From: Pseudomonadota bacterium
Lineage (GTDB): Bacteria > Myxococcota_A > UBA796 > SXON01
Assembly: GCA_005778355.1 (NCBI GenBank)
Contig: SXON01000112.1
Location: forward strand, 28,636-92,635
Direction: 5' to 3'
DNA length: 64,000 nt
The position numbers were made by a program, and so were the translations under genes. The notes beneath the pieces were generated by a model. That model was not told the DNA's origin. It saw nothing but the letters and a program-made list of their open reading frames with translations, and did no database searches. Below, piece after piece: positions 8,630-14,946 of this stretch. Within the stretch, counting starts at the first letter, position 1, and each line of letters starts with the position of its first letter.

Positions 8630-9937
8630 GTGCTGCTCCTCCTCCTCGCCTGCGCGACCCCCCTACCGGACGACTCGTCCGAGGTCGCCTGCCCGCCGCC
8701 GCCCGACCCCTGCCCACAGGGCGTCACCGGTCCCGCAGCGGCCGGTATCGAGATGCTCCCTGCGGTGGCGGTGCCCCACGGTCCGGCATGGCTCGTGGTT
8801 GGCGACCTCGCAGGCGTCGGCACCATGCAGGTGTACGTGGGCACCAACACCACCGTCACCCGGCTCGACGGCGAGGGTTGGACCGTCGCGACCGACATCT
8901 GGACGCAGCCCGACGACGGCACCGCCGTGTTCCCGCTGGTGGCTGATCTCACCGGCGACGGCACGCTCGACCTCGCCATCGGCCTCCCCGGAAGCGACGA
9001 CGGCAACGGCCAGGTGATCGTCTTCCCTGGGCCCGTCACCGGACCCGTGAACTGGGACAGCCCCCACCTTGAGCTCAAGGGTGGCGGCGGCCTCGGCTTC
9101 GAACCGGCCACCGGCGACTTCGATGGCGACGGACAGCTCGACCTCCTGGTGAACGGCCACGGCTTTGCGATGATCAAGCGCGGACCGTTTGACGCCGACG
9201 CGTCCTTCGACCCCGACGTCGACACCCTCCTCCAGGGCCCAGCCGACGCGCCCTCGCTCTACGCGACGGCGGCAAACCTCGACGGCGACGGCGTGAGCGA
9301 CGTGGTGTACAGCCTCACGGATGCCCCCAGCTGCCTCGACTACGGCACTCAGTTGGGAACCGCCACGGGACCCCTCGGCCCTGGCCTAGCCACGTTGACG
9401 GAGCTACCATCCGACGTCGGCCAGGCCTTCTACACGCTGTACGACGACGCGGCCGGGAGTTCGCGCGGAGCGCCACCCCTCGCCGCCGACGCCGACGGCG
9501 ACGGGCTCGACGACCTCGTGGTGTACGCCCTTTCCACCGAGTTTCACCCCGCGAGTCCCGTCGTCGCCGCGCTCTACCCCTCGCCGGTCGGCACCCGCGA
9601 CCCCGTGTACTTCGGCCTCGCATCGCAAGTCAGCCTCGCCGAGCTGACCCAGAGCGGCGCGCTATTGAGCGAACTCGGCGACCTCGATAACGACGGCCTC
9701 GCCGACCTCTTCACCGGCGGGGCCATCCTCGCAGGCCCTCTCGCCGACCTCTCGCCCCCCGACCGCGAAGCATGCACCGTGGCTTACGACTACGTGCTGG
9801 CCAACCAGGCCGCAGGGGCCGCGGCGAGTTGGCTCGGCGACCTCGATGGTGACGGCGACAACGAGCTGGTGATCGCCGGTGACGGGGAGGACAACGAGGG
9901 CGCTGTGCAAGTCCTGGTCGGTCCAGTCGCGATTTAA
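8630..9937 (+). CDS. FG-GAP/VCBS repeat lipoprotein (435 aa)
   Basis: A very short leader (GTG start, LLLLLAC) places a lipidated Cys at residue 7. The mature protein has repeated calcium-binding-like motifs of the FG-GAP/VCBS type: DLTGDGTLDLAIG, DFDGDGQLDLLV, NLDGDGVSDVVY, DADGDGLDDLVV, DLDNDGLADLF and DLDGDGDNELVI. These form a seven-bladed integrin-like propeller. The protein is expected to be at the cell surface; its ligand is not predictable. It converges on the next gene with a 4-nt overlap of the two 3' ends. Confidence 0.8.
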   Translation: MLLLLLACATPLPDDSSEVACPPPPDPCPQGVTGPAAAGIEMLPAVAVPHGPAWLVVGDLAGVGTMQVYVGTNTTVTRLDGEGWTVATDIWTQPDDGTAVFPLVADLTGDGTLDLAIGLPGSDDGNGQVIVFPGPVTGPVNWDSPHLELKGGGGLGFEPATGDFDGDGQLDLLVNGHGFAMIKRGPFDADASFDPDVDTLLQGPADAPSLYATAANLDGDGVSDVVYSLTDAPSCLDYGTQLGTATGPLGPGLATLTELPSDVGQAFYTLYDDAAGSSRGAPPLAADADGDGLDDLVVYALSTEFHPASPVVAALYPSPVGTRDPVYFGLASQVSLAELTQSGALLSELGDLDNDGLADLFTGGAILAGPLADLSPPDREACTVAYDYVLANQAAGAAASWLGDLDGDGDNELVIAGDGEDNEGAVQVLVGPVAI

Positions 9938-11565
9938 TCCCCGAATCGCGCGCGCACCCGCCGAGCCAGCAGCACCGCCAGGGAAAGATGCAGCCGCTCG
10001 GCGAAGCCCGGTCGCGTCTCGCAGAGCACGTGGAGGTGCTCCCGGGGCAACACGTCCACCGCGACGGCTCCGCGCGCCACCACGTCGGCGCTGGCGGGCT
10101 CATTGTCGACGAAGGACACCTCGCCGAACACCTCGCCCGGACCGAGCACCGCCACCACCTCGCCGCCCGGCGCGCGAACCTCCTCCTCGCCCCGGTGAAC
10201 AAGGTACAAGCTGGCCCCCCGGCTCCCTCGTTTGAGGAGAACCGTGCCGCCCTCCGCCTCTCGGCGCCACGCCGCCACCAAGACCGCGAGCATGTCGGCT
10301 GGCCCGAGGTGCCGCAGGGGTAGCGTGGCCCCCACGTTCCCGACGTTGGTCACGAAAGCGGCGTCGGTCTCGGCCACGCGTTCGGTCATCTGGTGCTCGA
10401 AGCGCAGAACGCGCTCGTCTTCCAGCGCCACCACGCCGCCGGTCGACATGTAGGCGCCCGGCGCGCCGGGGCCCTCGGCACGGAGGTACGCCGCCCCGCG
10501 TTTCTGGTGCACCAGTCGCCACGCCTTGAGCGCCGACAGGCCGGCGTTGAACAGGCCAGCCAGCTGCGAGTCACCGCTCTCTTCCACGAACTGCCGCAGG
10601 ACGGGACCGGCCGCGTCGGCGGCCTCGAGGAACCGCTGGTGACGCCCGGGGAGAAATCGTCGCGTGTGCACCACGCTCTTGCCCATCCCCGACCGCCGCG
10701 CGACCGACAGCACGCTGTCGAGCACCTGCAGGGAGCCCACCTGCGGACCGGAGGCTCCTTCCAGCACGCCCTCCCCCTCGTCGATACCCCAGAGCGTGGC
10801 CGGCTGGATCAGCGTCATGAAGTCGCTGCCGGTGAAAACGCCCTTCTGCACGTAGTGTTTGAAGGGCCGCCCCATGGCGCTGATCTCCTCGTGGAGCCGC
10901 TCCAGGAGCCACGCGCAGCGATGGGCATTTCGTCGCGACGCGGCCTCGACGAGGCGCACGCAGGTGAGCACGGCGCGCGCCCCGAGCGCCTCCGTCTCGA
11001 TGCCGGTGCGCACGAAGGCACGCAGGGTCTCGTCTTTCGGAGGTGAGAGCCAGAGGACCGCAGGCTCGGCCCCGCCGTCGAGCAAGGCCTCGATCTCGTA
11101 GGTACTGCCGCCCTCGCGACCGGGGAGGCGCCAGTTGGCGGTCACCATCGCCGCGAGGTTCCCCACCCGGGGGTGACCCGCCCGAGAGGCCAGCGCTCGC
11201 CAGGGCCCCTCGATCCCGGGCGGCAAGACAAGCTTCTGCCTCTGGTATTCCTCGGCCGCCGGCGGCAGGCGGTCCCAGCGGTAGGCGTGACCAAGCACCG
11301 AGAGCACCGTGAGCAGGCGGTCCGCCTCGGACTCGGTGAGCGTGGTCACGACTGCATCGACGCCCTCCGCGGGCTTCGCGAAGCGCGCCTCCAACCATTC
11401 CCGCGCGCCCTCGCCATGGAAGTGCTCGGGCAAGTCACGAGCCGCCTCGACCCAGGGCGCCCAATCGCTCGGCAGCGCGTCGCTTGGCACGCGCCTCGGC
11501 ATGAAACCGAGACCTCGAGCGAGGTCGGCATGGAGCGACGCGCGAAGGGCCGCGACCGAGGACAC
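9934..11565 (-). CDS. Indoleamine 2,3-dioxygenase-like protein fused to a cyclic-nucleotide-binding domain
   Basis: The first ~385 of 543 residues follow the IDO superfamily pattern: PRVGNLAAMVTANWRL near 132, LPGRHQRFLEA near 305, and the proximal heme ligand His in AWRLVHQKRGAAYL (His353). STGG near 374 corresponds to the GTGG loop. IDO enzymes oxidatively open the indole ring of tryptophan using heme. Residues ~425-540 form a CRP/cNMP-binding beta-barrel with PGEVFGEVSF, but the usual phosphate-binding Arg of R-x-A is not obvious (NEPASADVV). The start is GTG. Whether it acts on tryptophan or binds cAMP/cGMP is uncertain; the fusion itself is clear in one uninterrupted frame. Confidence 0.75.
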   Translation of the reverse strand: MSSVAALRASLHADLARGLGFMPRRVPSDALPSDWAPWVEAARDLPEHFHGEGAREWLEARFAKPAEGVDAVVTTLTESEADRLLTVLSVLGHAYRWDRLPPAAEEYQRQKLVLPPGIEGPWRALASRAGHPRVGNLAAMVTANWRLPGREGGSTYEIEALLDGGAEPAVLWLSPPKDETLRAFVRTGIETEALGARAVLTCVRLVEAASRRNAHRCAWLLERLHEEISAMGRPFKHYVQKGVFTGSDFMTLIQPATLWGIDEGEGVLEGASGPQVGSLQVLDSVLSVARRSGMGKSVVHTRRFLPGRHQRFLEAADAAGPVLRQFVEESGDSQLAGLFNAGLSALKAWRLVHQKRGAAYLRAEGPGAPGAYMSTGGVVALEDERVLRFEHQMTERVAETDAAFVTNVGNVGATLPLRHLGPADMLAVLVAAWRREAEGGTVLLKRGSRGASLYLVHRGEEEVRAPGGEVVAVLGPGEVFGEVSFVDNEPASADVVARGAVAVDVLPREHLHVLCETRPGFAERLHLSLAVLLARRVRARFGD

Positions 11566-11592: not shown

Positions 11593-11835
11593 CTAACGAC
11601 GGCGTCGCAGCGCGGCGACGGCGCCCAGGACGCCGAGGCCCACGCCGGTCGCGCCGCTGTCGCAGCCTCCGCACAGGCCACGGTCACCGCTCAGGTCTTC
11701 GGGCACCTCCGTCTCCTCGGTGTCACCACCCCCGGCGGCGCTGTCGGCGGTGTCGCCACCAGTATCGTTGTCGCCGGTGTCGGCAGTGTCGGCGGTGTCG
11801 GCAGCGAGGGCGAGGGTGAAAAGCAGCGTGAACAT
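11593..11835 (-). CDS. Small secreted protein with MYXO-CTERM-like tail (80 aa)
   Basis: The start at 11835 has GGAG 5 nt upstream and gives the signal peptide MFTLLFTLALAA. It is followed by an Asp/Thr/Gly linker (DTADTADTGDN...) and a C-terminus GLCGGCDSG plus a hydrophobic segment plus LRRRR. Cys residues before a membrane helix and terminal Arg are the layout of the MYXO-CTERM sorting signal, known from Myxococcota exported proteins that are processed and anchored. Almost nothing lies between leader and tail, so it is a bare linker-plus-anchor protein. The longer ORF in the track is an artefact. Confidence 0.65.
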   Translation of the reverse strand: MFTLLFTLALAADTADTADTGDNDTGGDTADSAAGGGDTEETEVPEDLSGDRGLCGGCDSGATGVGLGVLGAVAALRRRR

Positions 11836-11908: not shown

Positions 11909-13471
11909 GTGGCTTTGTCCACGATCGGGGTGTGTGTCACCACCATCGGTCGAGTGCCCGGGGTCGTCGCGCGGCAGCCCGCGCTAGAGCAGCACGTGGA
12001 TCCTCGGCAATCACCGCGTCTCGGCTGGGTGACGGCGCCCTCGCCCGTCGAGGCCCACCCCGCCCTGGCCGAGCGACTCGGACTGCAGTGGTTCGGCGTC
12101 AAACGCGACGATCTCTTGCCTGCGCTCCACGGCGGCACCAAGGTGCGCAAGCTCGACTTCCTGCTCGCCGCGCCACCCTGGTCGCTCGCGCCCGGCTGGG
12201 CGGCCGCTGGCGCCATGGGCTCCGGGCAGATCGCCGCGCTCGCCGCTGCAGCCGAAGTCCTCGGCAAGACCCTCCACGCCCACCTCGCGTGGCAAACGCC
12301 CACGGGCCACGCCATCGAAAACCTCGCCTTTGTCGCCACTCGCGCCCAGATCACCGACCACGGCTCGCGGGTACGGATGGCGCTTCGTCACCCGGCCTTG
12401 CTCCGGGGCGGCCGCGTGGGTGGACTGCCGGTGGTCCCGCCGGGGGCGAGCGCCGGGCCCGGACTGCTCGGACCGGTGGAGGCCGGGCTCGAGCTCGCGG
12501 CGCAGGTGGAGCGCGGCGACTGCCCGCTTCCCGACGAGATCGTGCTGCCCTTCGGCTCCGGGGGCACAGCGGTCGGCCTCGCGGTGGGCCTGCGACGCGC
12601 CGGTTTGCCCACGGTGGTGCGCGCCGTCGCCTGCGTGGAACGCCCTCTCGCCGCGGCCTGGCGGGTGCGCAGCCTGCTCGACGAGCTCGGCGAGCGCGAC
12701 GCGAGCCTCCACGTTGAACATGGCCACGTGGGTGGTGGTTACGGCGTCCCGAGCATATCTTCCGAAGCCGCCGTCGCGACACTTGTATCACAAGGTATCG
12801 ACGCCGAGCCGGTGTACGGGGGGAAGGCGATGGCCGCGTTGCTCGCCAACCCCCCGCGCGGCAAGCGGGTGCTCTTCTGGCACACGGCGCGACGTGGGCC
12901 CCTGCCTGTCGACCCCCGCTGGCGCGAGCGGCTCCCCGCGAGCCTCCAGCGACGCCTTGATGGGGGGCGAGGACGGAGGGCCCTCCTCGTGGGTGGCCTC
13001 GCGGCCGCGGCGCTCGTGGCGATCCGCACCAGCGGCTACCCGGACCGCAGCTTCACGGGCGCCGTGCTCGCCGACTGGGAAGCCGAGGTGGTGCGCGCGC
13101 TCGGCGAGGCGGTGGCGGTGGTGCCGCACGATGCGGAGCTCGCCGTGGCCACGGTCGATCACTTCCTCACCGGCCTGTCGCCGTTCAACCGGGCCGAGGT
13201 GCACGGCCTGTTCGCGCTGGTGGAGCACGGGCTCGGCGTGCGGCGTTTCACCTCGATGGACCCGGCCGGTCGACGCGAAGCGCTCGCTCGGCTCGCCTCG
13301 CTGGGCGCTCTCCCCGCCGTGGCAAGCCGCGGCGCGCGCGACCTCGGCCTGCTCGGCGCCTACGCGCAGCCCGCAACCTGGGGTGCCCTTGGCTACGAGG
13401 GTCCCATCGTTGCCCCGGGGCGCCCCGACCCCTACGCGGTGCACTGCGCTCCCGACGGCGCCGCCCCGTGA
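11909..13471 (+). CDS. Fold-type II PLP enzyme (D-cysteine desulfhydrase/ACC deaminase-like) fused to a GMC-oxidoreductase partner domain
   Basis: Residues ~35-350 resemble ACC deaminase/D-cysteine desulfhydrases: GVKRDDL, the PLP-lysine block GGTKVRKLDFLL, the phosphate-binding loop FGSGGTAVGLA, and GGGYG. Residues ~365-510 match the small domain often encoded next to GMC oxidoreductases (SFTGAVLADWE..., RRFTSMDP, ATWGALGYEGP). The next gene is the GMC oxidoreductase, overlapping by 4 nt, so the partner domain is in context. The GTG start at 11909 lies inside a perfect 8-bp hairpin, so a later GTG (residue 16) may be the true start. Substrate unknown. Confidence 0.65.
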   Translation: MALSTIGVCVTTIGRVPGVVARQPALEQHVDPRQSPRLGWVTAPSPVEAHPALAERLGLQWFGVKRDDLLPALHGGTKVRKLDFLLAAPPWSLAPGWAAAGAMGSGQIAALAAAAEVLGKTLHAHLAWQTPTGHAIENLAFVATRAQITDHGSRVRMALRHPALLRGGRVGGLPVVPPGASAGPGLLGPVEAGLELAAQVERGDCPLPDEIVLPFGSGGTAVGLAVGLRRAGLPTVVRAVACVERPLAAAWRVRSLLDELGERDASLHVEHGHVGGGYGVPSISSEAAVATLVSQGIDAEPVYGGKAMAALLANPPRGKRVLFWHTARRGPLPVDPRWRERLPASLQRRLDGGRGRRALLVGGLAAAALVAIRTSGYPDRSFTGAVLADWEAEVVRALGEAVAVVPHDAELAVATVDHFLTGLSPFNRAEVHGLFALVEHGLGVRRFTSMDPAGRREALARLASLGALPAVASRGARDLGLLGAYAQPATWGALGYEGPIVAPGRPDPYAVHCAPDGAAP

Positions 13472-14946
13472 TCCACGACGCGAGTACGCTCGGCACGCCG
13501 CTGGAGCTCCGCGCCGACCTCTGCGTGGTGGGCTCGGGACCGGGTGGCGCCACCGTGGCGATGCTTGCCGCCGAGGCCGGGATGCGTGTCGTCTTACTGG
13601 AGGCCGGCGAGCTGGTCACCCCTGCGAGCATGGACCAGCGGGAAGACACCATGTTCCCAAGGCTTTTCTGGGAGAGCGGGGGACGCACCACCGCCGACCG
13701 CGCCATCCGTGTACATCAAGGCCGTGGGGTGGGTGGCAGCGCACTCCACAACTTGAACCTCTGCAAACGCGCCGCCCCCGAGGTGCTCGCCCAGTGGCGG
13801 CAAGCCGGTGTCGACCTCGACTGGAACACGCTCTACGCGGAGGCCGAGGCGCTCATCGGCGTGGTCGACGTGCCGGAGTCCATGCTCAACCGGCACAACC
13901 TGCTCTTCCGCGAAGGCGCACGGAGGCTCGGCTGGGCCAACGGTCGGCTCCGTCACAACCGGGAGGGCTGCGTGGGCAGCGGCTTCTGCGAGATCGGTTG
14001 CGCCTTCGACGCGAAGAACAACGCGCTGAAGGTGTGCATCCCGCGCGCGGTCCGGGCCGGGACCAGCGTGCTCGCGCGCTGCCAGGCCGTGCGGGTGCTC
14101 CACGATGATCGCGTCATCCACGGCGTCGAGGGGGTGGCCATTCATCCCCTGTCGCGACAAGCACTGGGCGAGATCCGCGTCCTCGCGCCCAGAGTCTGCG
14201 TGTCGGCCTCGGCCACCGGGACGCCAGCCCTCCTTCGCCGCTCCGGCGTGCCCGGTCGTCCCGTGGGCGACAGCCTGAGGATGCACCCGGCGGTGGTCGT
14301 GGCCGGCGATTTCGACGAGCCGGTGCATGCCTGGCGCGGTGTACCCCAGGGCTGGGAGTGCACCGAGCACCTTCGCTTCGACGAGAGCGTGTCGCGTACC
14401 TGGCTGGTGCCCGCCTTCGCACACCCGGTGGGCACCGCCACCCTCGTCCCTGGCCTCGGCGATGAACATGCCGCCTTGATGGCCCGCTACGCCCACCTCG
14501 GAGCCGTCACCGCGATGGTCCACGACAGCACCCGTGGTCGCGTGCGCCCCAGGGGCGACCTCGGCCTGTCCATCCACTACCAGCCCGACGAGGCCGACCG
14601 TGCCGCCCTCCAGGACGGCCTCGTCCACGCCGCTCGTCTCCTCTTCGCCGCCGGCGCGCGCAGGGTACTGGTCCCGAGCCCGCGCCTTGTCACCCTCGAC
14701 GACCCCCGCGCCGTCGACTCGCTCCGCGACGTGACCTCCCCCGACCTCAGCGCCGTGCACCCCATGGCCAGCGTCCCGCTCGGCGAGGCGGTCGACCAGG
14801 ACGGCGCCCACCGCGTGCTGCGCGGCCTCTGGGTGGCCGACGCCTCGCTCTTCCCCACCTCGACCGGCGGCCCTCCTCAGCTCACCACCTACGCGCTCGG
14901 CCTCCACGTGGGCCGCGCCCTCATCCAAAAAGGAGTCGGAGGTTAA
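13468..14946 (+). CDS. GMC-family FAD-dependent oxidoreductase
   Basis: This 492-aa protein has an N-terminal FAD-binding Rossmann motif (VVGSGPGGATVA), the GMC motif HQGRGVGGSALHN, a Cys-rich loop (GCVGSGFCEIGC) and a C-terminal GMC signature (LWVADASLFPTSTGGPPQLTTYALG). GMC enzymes oxidise alcohols or sugars. The four-Cys loop is typical of the bacterial members paired with a small subunit, here fused to the upstream PLP protein. The start is GTG, overlapping the upstream stop (GTGA), so translation is coupled. The 3' end lies within the second copy of the GTCGGAGGTTAAGG repeat. Substrate not determinable. Confidence 0.85.
   Translation: MIHDASTLGTPLELRADLCVVGSGPGGATVAMLAAEAGMRVVLLEAGELVTPASMDQREDTMFPRLFWESGGRTTADRAIRVHQGRGVGGSALHNLNLCKRAAPEVLAQWRQAGVDLDWNTLYAEAEALIGVVDVPESMLNRHNLLFREGARRLGWANGRLRHNREGCVGSGFCEIGCAFDAKNNALKVCIPRAVRAGTSVLARCQAVRVLHDDRVIHGVEGVAIHPLSRQALGEIRVLAPRVCVSASATGTPALLRRSGVPGRPVGDSLRMHPAVVVAGDFDEPVHAWRGVPQGWECTEHLRFDESVSRTWLVPAFAHPVGTATLVPGLGDEHAALMARYAHLGAVTAMVHDSTRGRVRPRGDLGLSIHYQPDEADRAALQDGLVHAARLLFAAGARRVLVPSPRLVTLDDPRAVDSLRDVTSPDLSAVHPMASVPLGEAVDQDGAHRVLRGLWVADASLFPTSTGGPPQLTTYALGLHVGRALIQKGVGG

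Follow-up and report, generated by a model that had tools for sequence, protein, structure and literature searches.

The window, a stretch of 64,000 nucleotides, carries on its minus strand at 9934–11565 an open reading frame with a GTG start that encodes a 543-residue protein, in which an indoleamine-dioxygenase (IDO)-like domain is joined to a cyclic-nucleotide-binding (CNB) barrel. The IDO enzymes familiar so far are mainly tryptophan dioxygenases with a single domain. The gene and the features discussed below are as follows.

9934..11565, minus strand: IDO-like/CNB-barrel fusion gene (open reading frame; full-length orthologue in genome G043; aligned with three homologues)
10501..11514, minus strand: IDO domain, residues 18–355 (Pfam PF01231; IDO1 in the PDB; clade profile against IDO1/IDO2)
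10015..10263, minus strand: CNB (cNMP_binding) barrel, residues 435–517 (Pfam PF00027)
10507..10509, minus strand: H353, proximal heme ligand, equivalent to human IDO1 His346 (alignment)
10441..10443, minus strand: T375 of the STGG loop, equivalent to human IDO1 Thr379 of the GTGG loop (alignment)
10804..10806, minus strand: Q254, at the position of human IDO1 Arg231 (alignment)
10120..10122, minus strand: E482, Glu of the FGE motif (alignment, invariant in four fusions)
10093..10095, minus strand: A491, in place of the phosphate-contacting Arg (alignment; PKA/PKG alignments; class survey)

Both domains score far above the curated Pfam cut-offs: residues 18–355 match IDO (PF01231; E 4.3e-26; 92.1 bits, cut-off 26 bits) and residues 435–517 match cNMP_binding (PF00027; E 4.5e-16; 59 bits, cut-off 27.5 bits). 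Sequence searches of the PDB independently matched IDO1 chains to residues 20–361 and CNB domains (PKA, PKG and MloK1 barrels) to residues 404–525, and the IDO homology extends past the Pfam boundary to about residue 400 (position 10366). The fusion proposed in an earlier sequence-only reading is borne out, including the significance of the IDO match in its first part. Its 'CRP-type' label is not, as Pfam detects no HTH in the protein, which ends directly after the C-terminal helix (C-helix) of the barrel without a DNA-binding domain and, on this domain content, is not a CRP-type regulator. Pfam likewise detects no reductase domain in the fusion protein; one is found in the sister clade described below. 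Armadillo-repeat matches in the PDB were dropped as sums of fragments in which no single stretch was significant, and a single-sequence AlphaFold model (pLDDT 38) was discarded.

Among 71 genomes of the window's class, a congener (G043) encodes a full-length relative, aligned over residues 19–539 at about 47% identity (E 1.9e-130). Searching 379 genomes from the whole phylum with the Pfam IDO profile led to two further fusions, in G101 and G125, members of one genus whose family and class both differ from the window's, with 43–45% identity over the IDO domain and barrel. The same in-frame two-domain protein thus occurs in three other genomes of the phylum, where the earlier reading had proposed to look for it, which rules out a chance join or an assembly or frame artefact. 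The G101 and G125 proteins extend about 320 residues beyond the barrel; this third domain is methyltransferase-like by sub-threshold Pfam matches only, and the PDB holds no match of weight to it.

Residues of the heme pocket and barrel

Alignment of 21 IDO domains (MAFFT) was used to map residues onto human IDO1. The histidine of AWRLVHQKRG, correctly singled out as the proximal heme ligand from the sequence alone, is H353, in a column invariant across 21/21 domains, and the MSTGGV segment, as had also been recognized, is the loop of IDO1 Thr379, a residue essential in the human enzyme (PMC5758539). The Thr at this position is kept in the four fusions and lost in two stand-alone relatives. R350 corresponds to Arg343 of IDO1, and F184, equivalent to Phe163, is invariant in the fusions; at the Ser167 position the fusions have Gly or Ala and canonical bacterial IDOs have His.

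Arg231, confirmed in L-Trp binding (tryptophan carboxylate) in human IDO1 (PMC5758539), is replaced by Gln in 6/6 members of the clade to which the fusion belongs, is retained in 8/8 canonical-type domains and is Ala in the sister clade, in a column that depends on the MAFFT alignment; a clade-only HMM aligns the segment slightly differently, and neither alignment places an Arg there. The flanking pattern xP..[FY]...[RQ]P favours the MAFFT register. In PrnB, a structural relative, the substrate carboxylate is bound through other groups (PMC11791213), so that loss of this Arg argues against standard Trp binding and leaves room for an amino-acid substrate.

Within the barrel, the four fusions share the motif F-G-E-x-S-F-x5-A-S-A-x-V. 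The Glu of the FGE motif contacts the ribose 2′-OH in cNMP binders. The phosphate-contacting Arg, noted as missing at first reading, is Ala in 4/4 fusions, leaving the canonical Glu and Arg pair of the phosphate-binding cassette incomplete. Most of the 28 other CNB-type matches of the same class retain the Arg (PR[ST]A), which indicates that its loss is specific to the fusion barrels and not a local norm. With CNB and CNBH domains (PKA R, PKG and CRP; CNNM4 and KCNH channels) the barrel has in common the Pfam cNMP_binding match and the FGE motif; CNBH domains have lost the Arg too, the fusion barrel having Ala instead, and, as a further difference, no HTH, kinase or channel is linked to it. 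On these residues the fusion barrel is a degenerate, CNBH-like CNB domain.

These observations bear on the simplest account, an ordinary tryptophan IDO of the kynurenine pathway whose CNB domain places it under cAMP or cGMP control. Both Pfam matches, the retained heme His and T375, and the several class III cyclases encoded elsewhere in the window's genome would fit such an enzyme. We nevertheless regard it as very improbable and as the least likely reading, given the Gln at the Arg231 position, Gly in place of the Ser167-position His of canonical bacterial IDOs, and the Arg-to-Ala change in the cassette of all four fusions. The window's genome also encodes a TDO, whereas bacterial IDO and TDO have been reported to be mutually exclusive, one sufficing for Trp metabolism (PMC4191572). 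This resident TDO and the Gln shared by the six clade members weaken the tryptophan-type oxidation first suggested for the protein and, together with the Ala in the barrel, make it unlikely to be either a conventional tryptophan IDO or a conventional cAMP switch.

A rare clade and its giant sister proteins

Two further genomes, G396 and G399, encode the same type of IDO domain as stand-alone proteins without a barrel. The clade is rare, occurring in five genomes besides the window's among more than 500 examined in the phylum. In a maximum-likelihood tree of the 21 IDO domains, its six members form a single clade (support 100/100; branch 1.56) neighboured by a clade of giant proteins, and both are set apart from the canonical bacterial IDOs (99/98). 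A profile built from the six domains recovers its own members at E below 1e-180 and other IDOs at best at 1e-32, so that over 150 orders of magnitude in E-value lie between the clade and the remaining IDOs; against the PDB, a profile of this clade alone matches IDO1 and IDO2 only (E 1.7e-19), and neither PrnB nor TDO. The fusion has in common with canonical IDOs (human IDO1 and IDO2, and bacterial enzymes) the match over residues 18–355, the proximal His, R350, F184 and the STGG/GTGG loop, and differs from them in the Arg231-to-Gln change, its separate clade, its C-terminal CNB barrel and an identity of about 25% to canonical IDOs of the same phylum.

In a second congener, G044, there is a remnant only (L004:1324-2331), which aligns to residues 52–156 of the query at 54% identity before the frame continues without homology; this looks like either a decayed copy or a fragment of the assembly. 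A pattern scan of 84,980 species, weak at 45% identity, returned no IDO relative and one CNB-only match, and searches of plasmids and viral contigs returned nothing.

The giants are the nearest IDO relatives of the fusion clade in the tree. Their open reading frames, of about 1320–1840 residues, are arranged as (GGACT–)IDO–FAD_binding_1–NAD_binding_1–cytochrome b5–further regions, with an HPGG motif in the cytochrome b5 domains. The Pfam scan covered three of them, L052:7729-12624, L053:7058-12100 and L054:6219-11204, which are related over most of their length, and identified N-terminal GGACT, IDO-like, FAD/NAD(P) reductase and cytochrome b5 domains. Further giants, likewise related over most of their length, lie at L071:5946-9908, L072:6258-11135 and L073:2-4012; a 158-residue open reading frame at L072:11139-11612 (minus strand), adjoining one giant, is homologous to the giants' C terminus and has no Pfam match. 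The sister clade differs from the fusion not only in its FAD/NAD(P)-binding and cytochrome b5 domains but also in having Ala at Arg231 and Ile or Asn at Thr379 when aligned to human IDO1. Cytochrome b5 has been suggested to reduce IDO in the cell (PMC4191572), and with it and a reductase fused in one chain the giants look like self-sufficient IDO-type oxygenases.

One giant, from a genome of the window's order (G013; L055:1784-6181), has lost the usual C terminus and instead terminates in a pair of CNB barrels, with the canonical phosphate-binding cassette Arg present in the first (GEVSLIDGGIRSA). This is a separate fusion event, and the IDO-like heme domain and the CNB barrel have thus been joined at least twice. 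The idea of a degenerate CNB domain in the C terminus of the sister clade in general was rejected, hhalign showing no similarity.

Gene neighbourhood and the signalling alternatives

In G101 and G125, another gene on the same strand follows so closely that its likely start is no more than a few bases from the TGA of the fusion gene: an overlapping GTG in G125 and an ATG a few bases downstream in G101. This second gene codes for a Ser/Thr protein kinase domain together with AAA_16, GAF and class III cyclase domains, and its copies in the two genomes share 75% identity; by eye, the cyclase retains VN..AAR and the two metal Asp residues, and its base-selecting residues are changed. This gene pair, IDO–CNB–(methyltransferase-like) followed by kinase–AAA–GAF–nucleotide cyclase (L057:8803-16975 and L056:2265-10545), is confined to one genus and counts as one observation. 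In the window and in G043 the fusion gene has no cyclase gene beside it, and the two loci have no neighbour in common apart from the fusion gene itself; none is shared with the stand-alone members either, and no conserved biosynthetic neighbour lies beside the genes of this clade.

The coupled cyclase, with its metal Asp residues and VN..AAR, and the invariant E482 could together mean that a cyclic nucleotide, supplied by the partner or by another cellular cyclase, controls the barrel through a non-canonical site. This would concern the barrel only and is compatible with either an oxygenase or a sensor. We judge it unlikely, with the Arg lost in 4/4 fusions while most other CNB proteins of the class keep it, and with no adjoining cyclase in the window or G043; moreover CNNM4, without both the Arg and the Glu, binds neither cAMP nor cGMP (PMC6940986). 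For the second-messenger sensing suggested at first reading, the missing Arg of the four fusion barrels is unfavourable, yet the cyclase gene coupled to the fusion in two relatives and the intact Arg in a barrel of the independent G013 protein point towards it.

The main rival to an oxygenase is a heme-based sensor of O2, CO, NO or redox state, in which the IDO fold would be the detector and the CNB barrel a transmitter or dimerisation module, reporting in the relatives to the adjacent kinase–cyclase. Abalone IDO-like myoglobins, O2 binders with the IDO fold and no catalysis, provide a precedent (PMC4191572), and the fusion to a signalling domain, the kinase–AAA–GAF–cyclase gene within a few bases in G101 and G125, the lost substrate Arg and the lack of biosynthetic neighbours all point the same way. 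Yet the substrate-closing STGG loop and F184, both invariant in the fusions, would be superfluous in a pure sensor, two clade members occur on their own with no signalling domain attached, and the sister clade is built like a self-sufficient oxygenase, so that we consider a sensor possible but somewhat doubtful.

A proposed heme oxygenase with a degenerate barrel

The explanation that we favour, with confidence and doubt about evenly balanced, is a divergent His-ligated heme-dependent aromatic oxygenase (HDAO) of the IDO branch, acting on a non-canonical substrate and fused to a degenerate CNBH-like barrel. The N-terminal domain would bind heme b through H353, which we consider likely. Our best guess for its activity is that the ferrous heme would bind O2 and oxygenate a non-canonical, amine-bearing aromatic substrate over which the STGG loop would close, and which, with Q254 in the pocket, would not be held by the usual Arg–carboxylate salt bridge. 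The C-terminal barrel may act allosterically or as a dimerisation module, controlling the accessibility or the activity of the heme pocket in response to a partner protein or to a ligand other than canonically bound cAMP or cGMP.

Several lines of evidence argue for this oxygenase. The fusion, with two strong Pfam domains, is kept in four genomes from two distant classes; H353, F184, STGG and FGE...ASA.V are invariant in the fusions; the clade is discrete, with the Arg231 change in every member; and a TDO is already present in the genome. The reductase and cytochrome b5 of the sister clade further suggest an enzymatic role for this part of the tree. Other substrates and mono-oxygenase chemistry are known among the HDAOs (PMC12921851, PMC11791213). 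What counts against it is that the fusion clade has neither a reductase domain nor a conserved biosynthetic neighbour, and that, on the precedent of PrnB, Q254 is compatible with an amino-acid substrate (PMC11791213). PrnB, MarE, TyrH and SfmD, of the same superfamily, are precedents for IDO/TDO-like folds without standard Trp dioxygenation. To our knowledge, none of these carries a CNB barrel.

Distant relatives carry the same join, yet the residues responsible for holding tryptophan and cyclic nucleotides have changed, and the protein is therefore probably a heme oxygenase under small-molecule control, or a heme sensor, of an unstudied kind. More tentatively, and with some scepticism of our own, the IDO fold might have been recruited for signalling, as an IDO-derived heme sensor or a ligand-gated heme oxygenase, with the barrel and, in the relatives, the kinase–cyclase forming a new heme-to-second-messenger pathway. 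Both folds are known; a literature search, with most subscription papers outside its reach, found no paper joining IDO and CNB domains, and the architecture thus appears new, its function being proposed from sequence. The IDO–CNB clade, its coupling to a kinase–cyclase in two relatives and the reductase/cytochrome b5 sister clade suggest that bacteria have built both regulated and self-sufficient versions of IDO. If so, these proteins offer new HDAO chemistry for testing and point to one way in which allosteric control of a heme oxygenase may be achieved.

Two other genes lie near the fusion gene in the window. About 28 bases upstream of its start ends a gene (11593–11835, minus strand) for a small secreted-type protein of about 80 residues, Asp/Thr-rich, whose C-terminal GLGVLGAVAALRRRR resembles a MYXO-CTERM sorting tail. 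Divergent from the fusion gene, at 11909–14946 (plus strand), lies a gene for a PLP-dependent enzyme resembling D-cysteine desulfhydrase/ACC deaminase, with a C-terminal extension; a GMC oxidoreductase gene begins within an overlap with it.
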